Below, piece by piece: positions 11,629 through 64,000 of a stretch of DNA of 64,000 bases; position 1 is the first letter of the stretch; each line of letters opens with the position of its first letter. The position numbers and the translations under genes are program-made. Source of the stretch: Symmetrospora coprosmae (lineage: Eukaryota; Basidiomycota; Cystobasidiomycetes; Symmetrosporaceae); the NCBI GenBank assembly GCA_008802785.1, contig VUYT01000013.1, positions 62,001 through 126,000 on the forward strand, in the 5' to 3' direction. Under the pieces are notes generated by a model. The model worked only from the letters and a program-made list of their open reading frames with translations. It had not been told where the DNA came from and searched no databases.

Positions 11629-14026
11629 ATGGCACCGACATCCTCCTCGTCGAGCTCTGACTGGCCCTCGCCGTACATTGAGAACGTGGCAGACGGCGAA
11701 GAAGTCTATAATGCGAGTTGCCCCGGACTCGAAGTCGAAGCATCGCATCGTGGCGTATGGCCATGCATGCGGAGAGCTGATGATGCACCGCGCTCGTCGT
11801 ATACAGCGCCTGGCGCTTGTGACTGGTCGAGCAGGTCCCACTGGCGTCTCCTTCGACGGTCACATCTCTGTCCACGTCCGGTCCGACTCGCCTGCAGGTT
11901 CCCCAATTCCCGCTCAGACGTGGCCCGTGACGGACAGCTATTTCAAGGCGCTGGTACCGCTGGAGCCTGGCCGGAACACGCTCAACTTCCAATTTCACGC
12001 CCCCGCTTCGCTCGGACACCCTTCCTCCAAAGATACCGGTACCTCGCTCGCCGTGACCTATGTTCCCCTCTCGCAGAACCCGCCGCTGCACCTCGTCATC
12101 CTCGCCGCGTCCGACTCGCCGCTCACCGTGGACTGCCCGCCGGAGCGCAAGGAGCAGCATGCCAACCTGCAAGCTGTCGTTGCAAAGTTCCAGCTCTGGG
12201 CGTACATGTGCCAGGCGTTCACGGCTGAGCAGATGCGCAGGGGCGGTCTCGGCAGACGCACCTTTGCGCTCGACGAGAGGGACGGCGAACCGGATAGCTT
12301 GGAACAGTACCCGCCGCGGAACAAGCGGAGAGCGCCGCCCGTGCATTTCATCCGCAGCACGCACTCGCTGCGAGAGTTCCGGGAGCCAAACAATGCGCAG
12401 CAGGTCAGTTCGGCCCTCATGTAGAGCGAGCGAGGTGGACACGCAGCTGATGTGTAACGAAGGACGACAGTACAAAGCCGCCAAGCGCGCTGGAGCAATG
12501 CACGAGTTTGCCTCGGAGGCTCTGCGCTCACCCTCTGCGCCGGCGCCTTTTCACAGCCCGCAAGGCGCGTACGTAGCCGTGCTCATCCTCGACGCGCACT
12601 GGGACCCTCAGGCCAAGCTTCTGCTGGGACACGCCGCCCTCGGAGCCGGTGGACCCGTCAGTCCAGGGTGCAAGATTGGCGTCTTTGGCTCGCACTCATG
12701 CTGGGCCTGGCCACGGAGCCTGATTGAGGTCGTTCCCGCATTCATGGACAGCTCGGATGTCGACGAGCGGCATGTCGTGAATGACTTGGGAGAATGCGGA
12801 ACAGTCTGGGAAACCATCAATGTCGGACATGGCGCGTTCATCCATGAGGTCGGGCACGCCCTCAACCTACCGCACCACCGGACGGGCATCATGGCGCGCG
12901 GGTACAACGAGTGGAATCGTGCTTTCGCGACTGCCGAGGGACGCTCAAAGCGCTGCAATACGTCCGGGTGCCGGCAGATCGCGCCCGGCATGGACGATAA
13001 GGAGAATCACTGGGACCGCATGTCGCTCCTCCAGCTGCGCTATCATCCGACGATGCGCCTCCCGCGGGATCCGCTCATACCGTACCAGTACACGCGGGTA
13101 GCGCCCTTCATCTCAGTCGTAAAAGACGGCGTGTCGATCTCGGCGCCCGTCGGGCTCGGCAGCATCGAGCTTTCGGTCAACGACCGGTTCGTCAAGCAAA
13201 TCGAGTTCCCATTCTTTGGCAGTAATAGCGCTCTGCCTCCCCAGACGTATCACCTCACGACGAAAGAGATCAAGCGCCTCTGTCAGACGGACATTGCAAG
13301 CTGCAAGCTAACCGTCACGGCGTGCGGGACCGACCAGCGTAAAGCCGAGATCCAGGATTACAGCCAGCTGCTCAAAGGCTCGCGGCTGGTCATCACTACC
13401 ACGGCAGAAGGCCCCGCAGCTCCGGTCCCGACCTCCTCTCGGTCGTCCTCCACAAGCAAGCTCAAGCGTTTTGCGCAGAAGCATCTGCATCAGGGCGACT
13501 CAGCTAGCGCCTCAGCGACGACTGTGGCCAGGAGTGATGGCCGGGATCTTCGGCCGGGCCAATTCGAAGCTATCAAAGGCATCCCAGTCGGCTCAGAGAA
13601 GCCTCAAAACCCATCCTTCCTGACCATCTTCAACTCGCATCAGAGCAGTCGACCTAAGCTCGTGAAGGTCGAGGTGAGCATTCGCTGCCGGCCCTTGCTC
13701 CCGCCAGGCCCGAGCTGACATCCTGAGCCGCCTGGGTACCCCAGATCGTCGCTGGCTTTGCTCTCGATGGCTTCAGGCTGTTCTGGTCCGATGGCAGCAG
13801 GCAGCAGTTCGGTCCATGCGGAGGTGGTGCCGCGCGAAGCTTCCCGGTCAACCCGCCAAGCAAGGTCGTACGCCTCGTCGTACGCAGTGGCGCTTGGGTA
13901 GATGCCATCTCTGTTGTATATGAACACGGAGAGACGGGCTTGTGCGGAGGGGCCGGAGGCGATATCCGGATCTTGGGTGAGCAGGTCTGGCACCTTGCCT
14001 TCAGGACCCCAAAGGCAATGTGCTGA
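11629..14026 (+). CDS. Putative zinc metallopeptidase with C-terminal jacalin-like domain (YIL108W type)
   Basis: Resembles the fungal putative peptidase family of yeast YIL108W. Four exons (11629-11712, 11807-12403, 12471-13673, 13745-14026) give 721 residues. The N-terminal part is a beta-rich domain (YIENVADGEEVYN, LALVTGRAG). The zinc site is HEVGHALNLPHH, an HExxHxxxxxH motif, with ENHWDRMSLLQLRYHP downstream. After a Ser-rich linker the C-terminus reads IVAGFALDGFRLFWSDGS, VVRLVVRSGAWVDAISVVY and VWHLAFRTPKAMC, typical of a jacalin-like lectin fold. The first intron appears to start with GC (donor GCGAGT at 11713): this is the only choice I found that keeps phase between EEVYN and RLALVTG. 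No signal peptide is seen, so it is probably cytosolic. Substrate unknown. Confidence 0.82.
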
Positions 14027-40826: not shown

Positions 40827-43474
40827 TTACAAGCCTTCGTCGTACAGCTTCTTGCAAAGCGCCACGTAGAACCGCTCGTGGCTGAATTTCGTTGCGTCCT
40901 TGGCTGCCTTCCCGGAAGCCTGGGCTGAGCTCCCTCCGGCACCGAAGAGCAGGCGCGCCGTGTCCAGAGCGGACCTGTCTTTGCGGTCTTTCGCGCTCTG
41001 CGAGGAAACGATGACGTTTCGAATGGATGGGCTTGCAGCGAACAAGGATGGAGAAGGCGCGCCAGCCGCAGCTGTAATGCCGCCCTGCTCGGTAGCGAGA
41101 GGGGGCGCTTGGAGGGCATCCTCGAGCGGGAAAGTCGAATCAATGGAAGAGCGAAGGTGCTTGTCTGTGGTTGATGAGACAGGTATCTTCTTGGCTATCC
41201 AGGAAGCGACGCCAGAGATGGAGGAGAAAATGTCCTTGCCCTTCGCGCTGCTGTTGGACTCGGAGGTCACGGGCTGTTTCTCCCGCTTCGGCGTGAGGAA
41301 TGACCACGAGAGGCCGGAAGCCTCTTTCTCCTTCACTTTCGCTGTTCTATCCGTCCCCCGCCTCTCGAACTGTGACGGTGACGGTGACGAGGAGGAACCA
41401 GACGCCTCAGGTGCATCGCCTGGAGAAGCCGTGTCGTCGCCGGTTGCAGCCGACATCACAGCAGACGCTACATTGCCTACGCTATCGGGAAGAGCCGAGG
41501 AGGCCATCTCCCTCGCCTTGTCCGTCACGTCGTCTAGCTGCTTCGATGCCGTCGTCCCGAGCTTCTTGGCAGAACTCGCAGCAGAGGCCAGGGAGAAGTC
41601 TTGTTTGAGACCGCTCCCGCCGCGCAGCGACCAGTGGTCTGCTCCGTCAATGACGCCTAGGCTAGTCAGTGGAAGGAAGACGAATCAGCATCTCTGCCAT
41701 CAAGCACGAAGTCCAACGGAGCAGGCAAAACCCACAACTCGCCCCACTTGGAGCTCTCGACGGGCACGAGCCCATCGTTGCCCCACATCCACCCTTCAGG
41801 CCGCTTCCTCCCTTCCTTCTTGTCGCTAGCCTGCTCCAGCTCTTCCGCCTTGTCGCAGATGAGCTTTGGCAGCCACAGAGGATGCGTCACGGACAGCTTT
41901 GGCGTGCGGGCTGCGACGCTAAAGTAGCGCACGTGGTCAACATCGGGGTTGTTGCGGTTGAATTGGCCATTCAAAAAAGCAGGGGTGAGATTCGAGTAGG
42001 CAGGCGAGTCGAGGAGGTCGAGGAGGTACGAAGCGAGCGTTGTGCTGAGCGAATAATTCAGGCCGGGGAGGTTAAAGACGACTTGTTGGATTGCGGCTTG
42101 CTTGCTTTCGCGCGAGGTCGAAGAAGAGGATGAAGTTGAGGCAGAGGACGAAGAGGTCGAGCTGCCAATGGCGTCCGACAAAGCGACGCTGTCATCCCTT
42201 GCCTGTCTCTCCCTCTCTGCGTGCTCTCCATCGGCTCCTCCCGCCTTGCGTGCGGCCTCAGCTCGCTCCTCGCGCTGCTTCCGCGTGAGCAGCGGCTGCT
42301 TGAGCGAGTAGGGCAGTCTGCTCTCGGCCAGACTGGACGCTGCCGCGCCACCGGCGCTATTACCCTCCACGGCCTGCTTGGACGCCTCGACTGCGGCTTT
42401 TGCGAGGTCGCCAATGCCGATGTTGGCGCGACACCACTCCATGAAAGGCGAGCCACGGTGCGGTGTCGCCAGGGTCGTCAAGCTGAGCGGGTTGTACTCT
42501 GTCGGCTTGATGCTGGACAGCAGGTAGCGGCAGTCGAGGCCGCCCATGCTGTGTCCGACAAAGTTGATCTCCTGCCCTTTCTTTAGATCTTTCGCCAGGG
42601 CCTGGTGTAGCTTTCTGGCGCGGTCTTCGACGGATCCGGTCCTGTAGGGTGCTGACAGGTCAGCCTGGAAAAGCACTAACATCGAACATTGCCCTTACCC
42701 AGGAACGCCGGTGATGATGGGATCAATGCCTACGACACCCTTCATCACTGTGAGCACGTCTGCCCAGTAGTGTATGCGGAGCGAAGGGAGTATTTCCAGG
42801 CCCCAGCTGTCAAAGCCGTACAGGCCATGGCAGAGAACGATAGGGTTTCGGGGTTTGCGTATTGGATCGTAGAGAGTAGGGTATCTGAGCAGAGTGTTGA
42901 TTTGGTCAGACGAGCCGGTTCCGCCGGCACCGTTCTTGGAGGTCGCAGACGGCAAGGCCAGCTCTTCGGCGAGGTCATGCGGACTCGAGTCCTGGCCTTC
43001 GCCGGCTGGGGGTTCGGATAGAGAGGTCCGAGACGGAGCAGAGAAGGTGGCTATTGTGTCTCCTGGTGTGGCGGTAGGGGCGTTCTTGCTGCTGCTCAGC
43101 AGCGAAAAGCTGCGCCGTGGGGTCCTGGTTCGTGCACGACCCGCCGAAGACGAGGACGTGCCTGCACCTGCATCCGGCCTTGAGAAATAGAGCCAGCTTC
43201 CTCCAAATTCAGCACCAGAGCGCGCGTGAAACGATGCTGATGTCCTCCTCTTCCTGTGCAAGTGCCCCCTGTCGCTGTCTGGTATTGGCTGTGCTCCTCC
43301 TTCCCCGTCTGCCGTCCTGACCACCCAGGAGGAACGTGACCAGCTCGTCGACCTCGACGTGGACGTGTCGGCTTTTCCGCACCTGCTGCAGGAAGCGTAC
43401 GCCGACGAGAGCGCGGCTGGCAGGATGGCCGATGGCGGTAGGGCAGAGGCCACTGCGAGAGTGCAGATGGCCAT
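40827..43474 (-). CDS. Triacylglycerol lipase-like alpha/beta hydrolase
   Basis: Serine hydrolase with the fungal lipase pattern. The oxyanion segment is NPIVLCHGLYGFDSWG and the nucleophile elbow is FVGHSMGGLDCRYL. LTTLATPHRGSPFMEW follows, then the acid residue in WGNDGLVPVESSKWGEF and the catalytic His in GVIDGADHWSLRGGSG. Two splice joins were fixed by phase: GVPG|TGSVEDRARKLH and KWGEF|LGVIDGADHW. An Ala/Ser-rich insertion (EGNSAGGAAASSLAESRL and beyond) interrupts the fold between helices. The C-terminal 230 residues are low-complexity up to FYVALCKKLYDEGL. The N-terminal 150 residues before NTLLRYPTLYDP are also disordered, and the start at 43474 is only the first Met of that frame; an upstream exon is possible. 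Localisation is unclear. Confidence 0.78.
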
Positions 43475-52986: not shown

Positions 52987-54349
52987 CTAACAGGCACAGC
53001 CCTCCGCCGTGGTAGCCTGATTCTGCTTGAGATTGACGTTGTTGCCAGCCCGCGCTGGCTTCGGCTTCTCGAGCGGAAGCTTCTTGGCTATCAGCAGGAA
53101 CAAGCCGGAACCGTCCACGCTCGGTCAGCACGATCATGCAGTATGGGGGTGACTGATGGAAGGCCGAGAGAGGCGAGAGAACGCACCTATCGCCTCGAAC
53201 ACTGCGGAAACGTTCTCGCTCGTCTTTGCGCTCGTCTCGAAGAACAGCAGGTTCTCCTCGTCGGCGTACCGTTGCGCATCTTCCGTCTCGACTGCCCGCC
53301 GCTCCGACAGGTCCGCCTTGTTGCCGACAAGAGCGACAATGATGGAGGGGTCCGCTTGGCGCTGGAGTTCCCGGATCCAGGACTTTGCCTTCTCGAGCGA
53401 TGCCTGCGGGATCAGAGCGAGGATTAGCAAGCTGGGCGCGAAAATGGGCTTTCAGATGAGAGCTTGCAAGCCCACGGCGTTAGTGATGTCTGTGCGTGGA
53501 GTAGATTGTGCACAGAATCAGCCTGGCTGCCTTGCAGAGAAGCAGCGACTGGACGGCATCTCACCATAGACGACCACTGCGGCACTTGCGTTCCTATAGT
53601 ACATTGGCGCGAGTCTGCGAGGAGGTAGCGAAAGCATGTCGGATCAAACAGGGCCGAGACCTCGCGGCCCGTGCGTCCAGGTGCTACACCTAGTGCTTCC
53701 ACTCACGACTTGTACTGTTGTTGCGAGGGGTAGAGGGACCGTGGATCAGCCTGGGTACGCCGCGAAGCTGCCCTCTATCGAATAACAAGTCGTCTGTTAG
53801 CTCACCCGTTCCTGTCCTGCCGTATCCCAAATCTGCGGCAGCAAGGCACAGTCGAGGCATCAACCAGAGGGTTACGCCACCTCGGGTGTGTGACGCGCGC
53901 GGACGGCGCGCACCTCGAACTTGACCGTTGTGGCCTCGTCGAGGACGACTGTCTGTGTCAAGAAGGCTGCACCAATCTTTGTGGTATAGCACAGGTCGTG
54001 GCTGATTCGGTCAGCTCCTGCTGCAGGCTAGACTCTGGCAGGTGCGTCGCCCGCTCACGGTGCTCTCGCGGTAGTCATCGAATTGGCCCTTGACGAACTG
54101 GAGGACAAGCGACGATTTCCCGACGGCTGACTCTCCGAGGAGGACTCTGCGAAGTGATGCGGGTGTGTGATGGCAGCCGCGTCAGTCTCTGGCAGGCCCT
54201 CCAGCGGCTGCGGCCGCCCCTTTGCCCTATCTGTCCAGCTCAGCGCAAAGGGGCGGCTGGCCACCCTCGTCGAGGCCAGGCCATCACACTGACAGCTTGA
54301 ACGAGTTGACGCGCGATCCCGCTGCGGATGCTGATGCTCGTGCTGCCAT
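52987..54349 (-). CDS. YPT5: Rab5-type small GTPase (Ypt5/Vps21), nine exons
   Basis: Early-endosome GTPase. Exons are 54349-54294, 54146-54059, 53976-53914, 53832-53806 (27 nt), 53714-53707 (8 nt), 53614-53565, 53489-53476 (14 nt), 53403-53187 and 53087-52987; 624 nt in phase gives 207 residues. G motifs: [16 protein letters not shown] (G1), the effector strand [22 protein letters not shown] (G3, the whole 27-nt exon), [27 protein letters not shown] (G4) and ETSAK (G5). It ends CAC, a double-prenylation site. The IGAAFLTQ and DTAGQERYKSLAPMYYR wording is diagnostic of Rab5. The 8-nt exon TACAAGTC supplies Tyr, Lys and part of Ser of that phrase and has CAG and GTGAGT flanks. Confidence 0.94.
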
Positions 54350-61229: not shown

Positions 61230-64000
61230 CTAGGCGCGCTCGATCCCCACTAGGAAGGTAGCGCGTCCCTGCCTCCCCGTTTCCTGGCTGATGGCGGCGA
61301 CCGCGCCCTGCATGTCGATGGTGATTCTCTCGCCCTTGAAGGTGATATGCTCCTCTGAGATGGGCACGTCCTGCAGAGTGTACTGGAAGGAGGAAGGATC
61401 CTCGCCAAACAGAACGAAAGCGAGCTTGCCCGCGACAGTAGCCTCAACGACGATGCGCTGGTGGCTCTTCAGGTTGCCATCGGTCATGTCCGGAATCTCT
61501 TCCTGCTGTAGATCCCGCTCCCGCTCCAGCTCCGGCGCCAGCTCTCGCTCGGCCCCGCCGCTCCACTCGTCCATCTCGGCTACCTTCGTGACCTGAGTCG
61601 AGCCCTTGCCCTGCTCGACTAATGAGGGCAGGATGCGGTCAGCGCCGAGCTGCATCATGACAGGCGGCGAGACGGCGCTCTCTGCCGGTCGGCCGCACGC
61701 CGACGGCTCGGAATCCTCAGCGTCCCGAGCTGGATTGGTGGGCTTGCCTCCGAGCATGGCCCGAACCTCCTTGTACAGCGTGACGAAAGGCGACCCCACA
61801 AAGTCGCGGAAGAACGAGGTGCGCAGCTTGGCCAAGTCGGCGCGCCAGAAGAAGAGGAGCGCGCACATGCGCGAGCGTCGCTGCGTCATTGCGCTTGCTC
61901 GGGCCGTCTCGGAGGGCGGGAGCGAGCCGGGTCGCCGTAGGAGAGGGGTGCGCTCGTCCGTAACGGCTGGGAGAGAATCGCTCTGCTCGTCTTGTGCAGG
62001 TCCGACGGTCTGGTGTGCACCGGGCGCCTCAGGAAGAGCATTGGCGGGAACCGGGGACTGGACTGGCAGGGGAGCTACCGAGATCGCCTCCTTTGCCGCC
62101 ATGGCTTGAGCTGCTGATGGCGGCGTGTCTGTGACGCGTACCTCCTTCACGCTCTTGACCGCGCAGAGGCCAGCGTATTTGTCAACCAGGCCGAAGACAG
62201 CAATCTGAGCGACGTCAAAGTCGAGGACTGGGGCGAAAGTGTAGACTTTGACGGTTCCTGGATCGAGGCGGAGCGCGGCGATAGGCTTGGACGGAGCGGC
62301 CAGCGACTGAGATGCCTCCGTCACGTCCTGTGCCGAAACAACCGAGTGCCCGCCCGTCTCATTGGCGCCTTCAACAAGCACGTATTTGCTGGCCGTGTAC
62401 TCCTCCCCATCACGGAGCAACGACAATGCCTCCCCCAGGTCCTTCCAAGTCAGCGCGTCTGCCGTTTTGGCGTCTCCCGCCCGGCAATTCCAGACACCAA
62501 TGTGAACCCCGCCCGTCTCGTCCACCGGCAGGGCCATCTTGAGTGCTTTCCCTTCGCCGTGTCCGAGGACATCGTCAAACACCGTGCCAGGCAGCCTGAC
62601 CGATCGCCCATTGGCAGCCTTCACGATCCTGTACTCTCCTCGTACGTCTTCTCCGCCAAGCTTGGTGAGAATCGCGGTACTAGGATCCTCCCTGTCGGTG
62701 ATGTACAGCGCAGCGTCCGAGAAGGTGCGCAGGACGGCATGGTACTCTGCGTACGGGTGTGTTGCAAAGAACATGTCGAAATCGCGTGTGATGGACAGGT
62801 AGCGATCGAGGAGGGCCGTCGTCGCGTTCCCGAAAACGTGGTGACGGTGCTCGTTGGGCAGGTCAGGGAAGAAGTCATCCGATGTTCTGAATGACCAGAG
62901 ATATAAATCAGTCTGTGGCTCCCAGACGGCGAGGGGTGGAGTGATCAGGTACCTCAGGGACTGGCTAGGGTCGGTCCTGCCAGACAGGTACTCGTTGTAC
63001 TCCCTCGCGCCTCCGCTCATGCAGTTGATGACGTTGCCCGTGCCAAAGTGCTTCTCTGCGGCCGTGCGCATGATCGAACCGAGCTTCTTTCGGAGCTCGC
63101 CTTCCCCTTCTCCTCTGTAAGCATCGACGTCTGCCTGGTTGTCCACCTTCACGTAGTCGACGCCAGCTGCCTTGAGCTCTGCAAAGTAAGCAGCGTAGAA
63201 CGAAGCCGCCTCGTCCAGGGCGGGCAGGTACACGTCCGTCTCCTCGTGCGACCACAGGAAGTCATTCAGCTTGGGTCGGTGGTACTTGACGAGTTTGAAG
63301 CGCTCGCTCAGCTGTCCAGCCGGGTTGATGCCATCCCAGTAGCCGTTCAGCGTCATCCAGACGCCCCAGGAACGGATCTCAGGGAACCTTTCCTTCCCAG
63401 CGCGGATGACGAGGGAGAGTGGCTGCTGGGATACTTCGGAAGTGTCGGATGCCTCGGACGCAACGCGGCTAGTAACGAAGCCAGAGTCCTTTCTTCGAGT
63501 GTAGTCACCGAGGGGAACCTGATCGCCGTCATTGCTGCTGGCGCGCGATGTCTCCTGCTCGAGCGGCGTCTCCTGCTCCGATGAGAGGTCCATCCAGCCC
63601 GTCTTGGTGCTGAAGCTGTTCAAGACGCGCCCGGAGACATCCTGCCATCCGTCGTCCAGAAGGACAGACTCGAACTTGTCGAGAACTTTTGCGTCTCGGA
63701 GCGCCTGAAGCCGCTCGAGGACTTGTGAAGCCTTGTAGTCGCCTCCAAGGCTGTTCCACGTGCAGTATACTGCTCGCTGTACATCCTTTAGCTTCCAGTC
63801 CGCCTCTCCTCCTTTCGTTTGGTTGCCAGCGGGCCCGATGTCCTTCCCATTGTTGGCGGGGCTCAGAACAGCCTTTGCCTCGTTCAAGCATCTTTCAACA
63901 ATGCCAAGGAGATCGTAGGATGGCCCCGTCGCAAGGACACACGCAGCCTCTCCGTTCCCTTCCCCGATGTCCCTCTCGGCGCGCAGCCAGACTTGTCCAG
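61230..64000 (-). CDS. GH36 / raffinose synthase-Sip1 family protein, N-terminus beyond window
   Basis: Alpha-galactosidase-superfamily protein. The frame is open from the right edge to a stop at 61230, over 900 residues without an intron, unlike the intron-rich neighbours. Sip1-type phrases appear in order: WNSLGGDYKASQVLERLQAL, VLLDDGWQDVSGRVLNSF, IRSWGVWMTLNGYWDGINP, VDYVKVDNQADVDAYRG (the Asp of KVDNQ is the expected nucleophile), NVINCMSGGAREYNEYLSGR, DLYLWSFRTSDDFFP and DFDMFFATHPYAEYHAVLRT. The acid/base Asp is probably the RTSDDF aspartate. The C-terminal 300 residues carry a Ser/Pro-rich insertion and a beta-rich end (LKSHQRIVVEATVAGKLAFV). Upstream of 63887 the frame continues (GPSYDLLGIVERCLNEAKAV). 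Substrate (raffinose-type oligosaccharide or other alpha-galactoside) is inferred. Confidence 0.85.
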   Translation of the reverse strand, partial: GQVWLRAERDIGEGNGEAACVLATGPSYDLLGIVERCLNEAKAVLSPANNGKDIGPAGNQTKGGEADWKLKDVQRAVYCTWNSLGGDYKASQVLERLQALRDAKVLDKFESVLLDDGWQDVSGRVLNSFSTKTGWMDLSSEQETPLEQETSRASSNDGDQVPLGDYTRRKDSGFVTSRVASEASDTSEVSQQPLSLVIRAGKERFPEIRSWGVWMTLNGYWDGINPAGQLSERFKLVKYHRPKLNDFLWSHEETDVYLPALDEAASFYAAYFAELKAAGVDYVKVDNQADVDAYRGEGEGELRKKLGSIMRTAAEKHFGTGNVINCMSGGAREYNEYLSGRTDPSQSLRYLITPPLAVWEPQTDLYLWSFRTSDDFFPDLPNEHRHHVFGNATTALLDRYLSITRDFDMFFATHPYAEYHAVLRTFSDAALYITDREDPSTAILTKLGGEDVRGEYRIVKAANGRSVRLPGTVFDDVLGHGEGKALKMALPVDETGGVHIGVWNCRAGDAKTADALTWKDLGEALSLLRDGEEYTASKYVLVEGANETGGHSVVSAQDVTEASQSLAAPSKPIAALRLDPGTVKVYTFAPVLDFDVAQIAVFGLVDKYAGLCAVKSVKEVRVTDTPPSAAQAMAAKEAISVAPLPVQSPVPANALPEAPGAHQTVGPAQDEQSDSLPAVTDERTPLLRRPGSLPPSETARASAMTQRRSRMCALLFFWRADLAKLRTSFFRDFVGSPFVTLYKEVRAMLGGKPTNPARDAEDSEPSACGRPAESAVSPPVMMQLGADRILPSLVEQGKGSTQVTKVAEMDEWSGGAERELAPELERERDLQQEEIPDMTDGNLKSHQRIVVEATVAGKLAFVLFGEDPSSFQYTLQDVPISEEHITFKGERITIDMQGAVAAISQETGRQGRATFLVGIERA

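Follow-up and report, generated by a model that had tools for sequence, protein, structure and literature searches.

Exons of a single nucleotide have been described in Arabidopsis APC11 and plant VPS55 (PMC4674806, PMC8831610) and in the Fusarium gene CYP621A (PMC12940212), and human MPC1 contains a constitutive exon of 4 nt (PMC9929638). Basidiomycetes have a high intron density, and exons with a coding capacity below 10 amino acids are frequent in their genes (PMC2897884). In the P450 genes of Phanerochaete, the shortest exon was given as 6 bp and about one third of the genes possess microexons (PMC1184071), and CYP5141A1 of Phanerochaete chrysosporium has an exon of 8 nt (PMC12940212). These statements reflect the accessible parts of the respective papers.

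The locus analyzed here lies in a stretch of 64,000 nt, which is termed the window in the following, and is predicted to encode the GTPase Rab5 with consecutive coding exons of 27, 8, 50 and 14 nt. An earlier note on this DNA had placed the 8-nt exon close to the smallest known in any eukaryote. In view of the published exons of 1, 4 and 8 nt, a near-record rarity is unsupported, and as tiny exons have already been published, basidiomycetes included, the Rab5 exon is a further instance of a known phenomenon. In the reading that we favor, with a probability of about 0.92, dense introns break the switch II exon of Rab5 into these four pieces, the 8- and 14-nt exons would be constitutive, and the introns would be recognized by intron definition and removed one by one, as a property of the whole genome and not of this gene.

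The predicted Rab5 gene

The gene model is complete and runs on the minus strand from an ATG at 54349 to a stop codon that ends at 52987. Its nine coding exons (Table 1) are separated by eight introns of 147, 82, 81, 91, 92, 75, 72 and 99 nt, and the joined coding sequence of 624 nt, stop included, encodes 207 amino acids. An in-frame TAA is found 21 nt 5' of the ATG. Since a splice model trained on other genes of the genome splits exon 1 in two, the 5' part of this exon is not fixed by alignment. Each of the 27-, 8-, 50- and 14-nt exons is directly preceded by AG and directly followed by GT, and the model contains the junctions GAACGG-TACAAGTC-ACTCGCG and GTCTATG-ACATCACTAACGCC-GCATCG.

All G motifs of the Ras superfamily (GxxxxGKS, WDTAGQE, NKxD and SAK) are present in the joined protein, which matches the Pfam Ras family with 203 bits. 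Among the best 60 of 166 matches to solved structures, human Rab5A comes first with 264.5 bits; Rab5A/B/C, plant RABF2b and yeast YPT51 occupy the top positions with 264.5 to 204 bits, and the first match from outside the Rab5 group is Rab6 with 165 bits, a comparison of bit scores. The YKS encoded around the 8-nt exon has a lysine where the human chains among the matches listed have a histidine. The protein ends in EGCAC, and these C-terminal cysteines would constitute a prenylation-type end. The best explanation is that the locus represents a working Rab5 gene of the Vps21/Ypt5 type from a basidiomycete-like fungus. The genome size of 20.05 Mb, a G+C content of about 60% and the beta-tubulin sequence hint at a basidiomycete, which may be of the Rhodotorula type. 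Other open reading frames of the window that are included in Table 1 come from a domain scan that covered 10 of the 49 reading frames of at least 200 amino acids.

Table 1. Predicted features of the window and of further loci discussed in the text (window coordinates unless a locus is named).
Feature	Location	Strand	Basis or remark
Rab5 coding exon 1, 56 nt, from ATG	54294..54349	(-)	joined reading frame, upstream in-frame TAA
Rab5 coding exon 2, 88 nt, P-loop GESAVGKSS	54059..54146	(-)	reading frame and spliced alignment
Rab5 coding exon 3, 63 nt, IGAAFLTQ, switch I region	53914..53976	(-)	reading frame and spliced alignment
Rab5 coding exon 4, 27 nt, IWDTAGQER, phase 0 at both ends	53806..53832	(-)	alignment, 0/150 shuffles
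Rab5 intron 4, 91 nt, gtgagc...acag, CTGAT 32 nt before acceptor	53715..53805	(-)	
Rab5 coding exon 5, 8-nt microexon TACAAGTC (Y, K, two bases of S)	53707..53714	(-)	alignment, 0/600 and 0/150 shuffles
Rab5 intron 5, 92 nt, gtgagt...gcag, TTGAT 30 nt before acceptor	53615..53706	(-)	
Rab5 coding exon 6, 50 nt	53565..53614	(-)	reading frame and spliced alignment
Rab5 intron 6, 75 nt, CTGAT 29 nt before acceptor	53490..53564	(-)	
Rab5 coding exon 7, 14-nt microexon ACATCACTAACGCC (DITNA)	53476..53489	(-)	alignment, 0/150 shuffles
Rab5 coding exon 8, 217 nt, GNKAD and ETSAK	53187..53403	(-)	reading frame and spliced alignment
Rab5 coding exon 9, 101 nt including stop, tail ends GCAC (Cys-Ala-Cys)	52987..53087	(-)	reading frame
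Putative metallopeptidase ORF, PF12044	window 12060-13718	(+)	Pfam match
DUF676 serine esterase ORF	window 41666-42682	(-)	Pfam match
Raffinose synthase ORF, PF05691	window 61230-63887	(-)	Pfam match
Predicted internal exons of 3 to 8 nt	L057 calmodulin, L038 ARF1, L062 actin, L016 RAN, L025 RAB11, L014 RHO1, L070 GAPDH		most near the 5' end
Beta-tubulin start	L069 (G000:C35:24200-26900), about position 1993	(-)	AG|G|GT one-base exon in the codon of G10

Support for the small Rab5 exons

A protein-to-DNA spliced aligner was written for this analysis. Guided by the human Rab5A sequence and left uninformed of exon lengths, it reproduced the internal boundaries of the gene model, among them those of the 8- and 14-nt exons. 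Forbidding the donor of the 14-nt exon lowered the score by 62 units. Forbidding that of the 8-nt exon lowered it by 19.5 units, and the fallback was a 5-nt exon TACAA with a poor donor and the loss of one residue, which was rejected. Dinucleotide shuffling was applied to the 191 nt that separate the 27-nt exon from the 50-nt exon, and in this approximate test none of 600 shuffles reached the real score. With the splice model trained on 82 introns from other genes of the same genome, the scores for the 27-, 8- and 14-nt exons were each matched by none of 150 shuffles, which is likewise an approximate measure.

Enumeration of single GT/GC-AG introns that could connect the 27-nt exon to the 50-nt exon produced one in-frame, stop-free bridge, which was discarded as it fails to keep both IWDTAGQER and APMYYRNA; longer versions of the 27- or the 50-nt exon were also ruled out by the aligner or the enumeration. 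If the gene works and its introns are of the GT/GC-AG type, a further exon is needed between the two, and TACAAGTC fits. The consecutive 27-, 8-, 50- and 14-nt exons that the earlier note had proposed are thereby borne out computationally, by frame, aligner, shuffles and the lack of a motif-keeping bridge, and the shuffles and the recovery of the internal boundaries by the guided aligner agree with its view that chance is an unlikely explanation. Its assignment of residues to exons has to be adjusted in detail. The 27-nt exon holds, but it encodes IWDTAGQER, as WDTAGQER alone would take 24 nt. Of YKS, the tyrosine and the lysine lie in the 8-nt exon, whereas the serine codon is split with the neighboring exon, and the 14-nt exon stands as well, with the aspartate codon of DITNA split in the same manner. 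The splicing pattern in the RNA is what we infer from these data.

Splice signals and the consequences of missplicing

The splice and branch-point motifs are ordinary in both introns that flank the 8-nt exon. Compared with the 82 training introns, the donor and acceptor of intron 4, which precedes this exon, rank at the 43rd and 60th percentile, and those of intron 5, which follows it, at the 48th and 93rd. Weak sites are found elsewhere in the gene, where the donor that follows the 14-nt exon, the intron 2 acceptor and the intron 8 acceptor each rank at the 9th percentile. A YTRAY motif is present in all eight introns, at a distance of 21-38 nt to the acceptor. In the training set, such a motif is found 18-45 nt from the acceptor in 47 of 82 introns, as compared to a mean of 10.3 of 82 in shuffled sequences.

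Retention of any single one of the eight introns leads to an in-frame stop. Skipping of the 8-nt exon is followed by a stop six residues on, and the frame is also shifted when the 14-nt exon is skipped, but no stop then occurs in the remaining reading frame, so a transcript of the latter kind would not be cleared for that reason within the known coding sequence. When the 27-nt exon is skipped, the frame is kept and IWDTAGQER is lost. Neither 8 nor 14 is a multiple of three and both exons are needed for the frame; because the omission of either one shifts it, both are predicted to be constitutive.

Predicted tiny exons in other conserved genes

A survey was carried out of Rab5 and 45 further loci of the 20.05 Mb genome. 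These loci comprised 25 Ras-like loci identified by Pfam and 20 others, and human sequences served as their guides. The 46 genes yielded 36 candidates for internal exons no longer than 15 nt. For 16 of these, in 11 genes, none of 150 shuffles reached the score, and the other 20, whose score was reached by at least one of 150 shuffles, were not counted. Half of the 16 accepted exons are no longer than 8 nt: the 8-nt exon of Rab5, exons of 3 nt in RHO1, 6 nt in RAN, 5 nt each in RAB11 and actin and 4 nt in ARF1, and two exons of 7 nt in calmodulin. The 3-nt exon of RHO1 is the weakest of the accepted ones, because the best of its 150 shuffles, none of which reached the score, fell only 2.8 score units short. 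In calmodulin, the start of the protein is divided as MADQL|SE|EQIT|EFKEAFSLF|DK over internal exons that measure 7, 12, 26 and 7 nt. In the two alignments listed, solved calmodulins match the joined protein without gaps. GAPDH, which was fetched later than the survey, has a predicted 8-nt exon whose score was reached by none of 100 shuffles.

Several candidates were set aside. Those in L015, L018, L041 and L061, among others, are end artefacts of the aligner, the small exon of PP2A in L063 dissolves because the reading frame simply continues, and the 3-nt exons of ARF1 (L038) and of an Arf-like gene (L033) were left uncounted as one of 150 shuffles reached their score. Initial scores against the Ras references were low for L031 and L033, which fitted better to ARF1. 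In the Rab-like gene L028, DITR is covered by an 11-nt exon whose position nearly coincides with that of the 14-nt Rab5 exon for DITNA and which starts one base earlier.

The genome thus appears to be rich in microexons, with other conserved genes predicted to possess exons that are equally small or smaller. As the architecture recurs in these genes, it would be a property of the genome and not specific to Rab5.

A predicted one-base exon in beta-tubulin

The smallest exon of this series is predicted at the start of beta-tubulin, a gene that was also fetched later than the survey and that is best read with exons of 9, 11, 8, 1, 16 and 52 nt. For this prediction, the aligner was extended to allow a one-base exon within a codon, and only the extended version gives the 9, 11, 8, 1, 16 parse, which it does in all four pairings of guide and scoring scheme. 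When the fungal guide was used, the extension raised the score from 1930.7 to 1959.8 under the trained model and, under the simple model, from 1814.1 to 1825.0. The parses of the unextended aligner, 9, 11, 1, 8, 16 and 9, 15, 8, 16, score lower and were rejected; with that aligner, two of 100 shuffles reached the score for the 11-nt exon, and likewise for the 8-nt exon. The extension left the parse unchanged in all 45 other loci.

The one-base exon G would supply the middle base of a glycine codon, with the model junction CACCT-TCAGACGG-G-CCAATG. AG|G|GT occurs exactly once in the 308-nt gap, and among 2000 shuffles, 166 contained a usable AG|G|GT and two had equally good splice scores. The joined start of the protein aligns without gaps in all five of the solved beta-tubulins listed.

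Intron positions and relatives of the gene

In 22 genes of the Ras family, 104 introns occupy 88 distinct positions, 12 of which are common to at least two genes. Three of the eight Rab5 introns share their exact position with other family members, namely those before IGAAF (L011 and L027), before IWDTAG (L011) and after DITNA (L018). No exact counterpart in the family was found for the two introns that bound the 8-nt exon or for the intron before DITNA. The 8-nt exon is therefore bounded by two positions that are found only in Rab5; of the positions that bound the 14-nt exon, one is likewise confined to Rab5 and the other is shared. Either a gain in Rab5 or a loss elsewhere would produce the same picture in these sequences. 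In 36 well-aligned genes, 233 introns are enriched towards the 5' end, with 56, 37, 19, 17, 11, 18, 12, 14, 13 and 36 introns in consecutive deciles, of which the end deciles include some aligner artefacts.

A Rab5 search of genome contigs returned two distant Rab5-like loci, neither of which is a fungal relative of the gene, and no relatives were found in viral contigs. Two adjacent intronless genes for Rab5-like proteins of 224 amino acids (L067:1941-2615 and L067:2659-3333) are located on a contig that is filed under a gammaproteobacterial MAG. The reading frames upstream of them presumably resemble LptF/LptG permeases.

Proposed mechanism and alternative explanations

Constitutive splicing by intron definition is the likely mechanism. 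The intron density would be so high that the exon coding for switch II is fragmented, and splice sites would be paired across each short intron, so that the introns leave one by one. Once the first flanking intron has been removed, the microexon would be part of a longer exon, from which the second intron could be spliced in an ordinary manner. Pairing across introns is favored by the shortness of the flanking introns (72-92 nt), each of which has its own donor, branch point and acceptor. An exon of 8 nt offers scant space for simultaneous occupancy of its two sites, which makes the removal of one intron at a time the simplest route. The order of removal and the operation of intron definition in Rab5 are what we infer from this arrangement. 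As described in the available part of a study in worms and mouse cells, microexons require the U1 component PRP-40 except where very short introns flank them, and the authors put forward intron definition for microexons that are too small for exon definition (PMC8378409). A search of the genome for FF domains gave five matches at two places, which are compatible with a Prp40 gene. U6 snRNA has a single match in the genome, close to a contig end (L054:1501-1616), that aligns to the whole family model and contains an 11-nt insertion region near the 3' end, with no insertion of intron size. A search of the genome for 5.8S rRNA gave no match.

The microexons might be real and yet be recognized by exon definition, with strong flanking elements forming an exon island as for the 4-nt exon of human MPC1, where a minimal region of 67 nt upstream and 6 nt downstream suffices, as far as the accessible part of that report goes (PMC9929638). 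However, the MPC1 introns are long, whereas the flanking introns of the Rab5 exons have a size at which intron definition is the presumed default according to the available text of the PRP-40 study (PMC8378409), and we consider an exon island unlikely. That the 8-nt exon is a regulated cassette, whose occasional skipping would frameshift the message and lower the Rab5 output, would agree with the early stop that skipping creates, and a regulated microexon is described for Trichoderma Xlr2 in the part of the report at hand (PMC11121469). Against this stand the ordinary to strong splice sites on both sides of the exon, the housekeeping type of Rab5 and the same architecture in other housekeeping genes of this genome, and we regard regulation as quite improbable.

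The remaining two alternatives question the exons themselves. A different splice choice could involve the TACAA exon or a non-GT-AG intron that unites larger exons. TACAA does emerge as the fallback of the aligner, but only once the 8-nt donor is forbidden and at the cost in score and residues described above, and no single GT/GC-AG intron keeps both frame and motifs, so that such a choice is very improbable. It is hardly credible that a decayed gene copy or an assembly error lies behind the locus, with exons that are chance matches. The genome does contain at least one other Rab5-like gene (L018), which lacks the Rab5 microexons, but the nine exons of the gene described here share one frame, all sites are GT-AG, the conserved motifs are full and the protein has its Cys-Ala-Cys end. 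We retain constitutive microexons between short, individually recognized introns as the preferred reading.

By itself, the Rab5 case is a modest addition to what is known, and the series of housekeeping genes would be of more interest if confirmed by RNA. We lean slightly towards the view that a sizeable share of the most conserved genes of this genome is spliced via chains of constitutive ultra-small exons, down to 1 nt in beta-tubulin. If this is true, the spliceosome routinely handles exons below any size thought to permit exon definition, and the genome would provide a natural system for studying intron recognition where exons almost vanish. Ultra-small exons are easily missed, so that gene prediction frameshifts or truncates the proteins; the genes exposed to such misprediction here would include Rab5, calmodulin, ARF1, GAPDH and beta-tubulin.

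Comparison with known systems

A literature search whose scope took in a minority of the subscription journals found no fungal Rab5 microexon and no one-base tubulin exon. The following comparisons extend as far as the available parts of the cited papers. Animal neuronal microexons, which depend on SRRM3/4 or on RBFOX/PTBP1, are also very small internal exons, but they are switch-like alternative exons, whereas the 8- and 14-nt exons of Rab5 are predicted to be constitutive and are required for the frame. Plant APC11 and VPS55 and the small plant microexons are constitutive, often unannotated and found in conserved genes; they differ in that they are from plants and validated by RNA, and in that their evolutionary depth is known. 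For the intron-dense basidiomycete genes, the accessible part of the account lists no universal genes with exons of up to 8 nt (PMC2897884). Fusarium CYP621A has a one-base exon that is required for the frame and provides the central base of a glycine codon in an AG|G|GT context, which is the arrangement predicted for beta-tubulin; the Fusarium exon, however, is confirmed by RNA, belongs to an ascomycete P450 and has orthologues in many species, while the beta-tubulin exon is a prediction. Phanerochaete CYP5141A1 shares with the Rab5 gene the basidiomycete origin and an 8-nt internal exon within a near-invariant motif. It is a member of the P450 family, in contrast to the essential GTPase described here, and in the present genome predicted microexons are found repeatedly in housekeeping genes.
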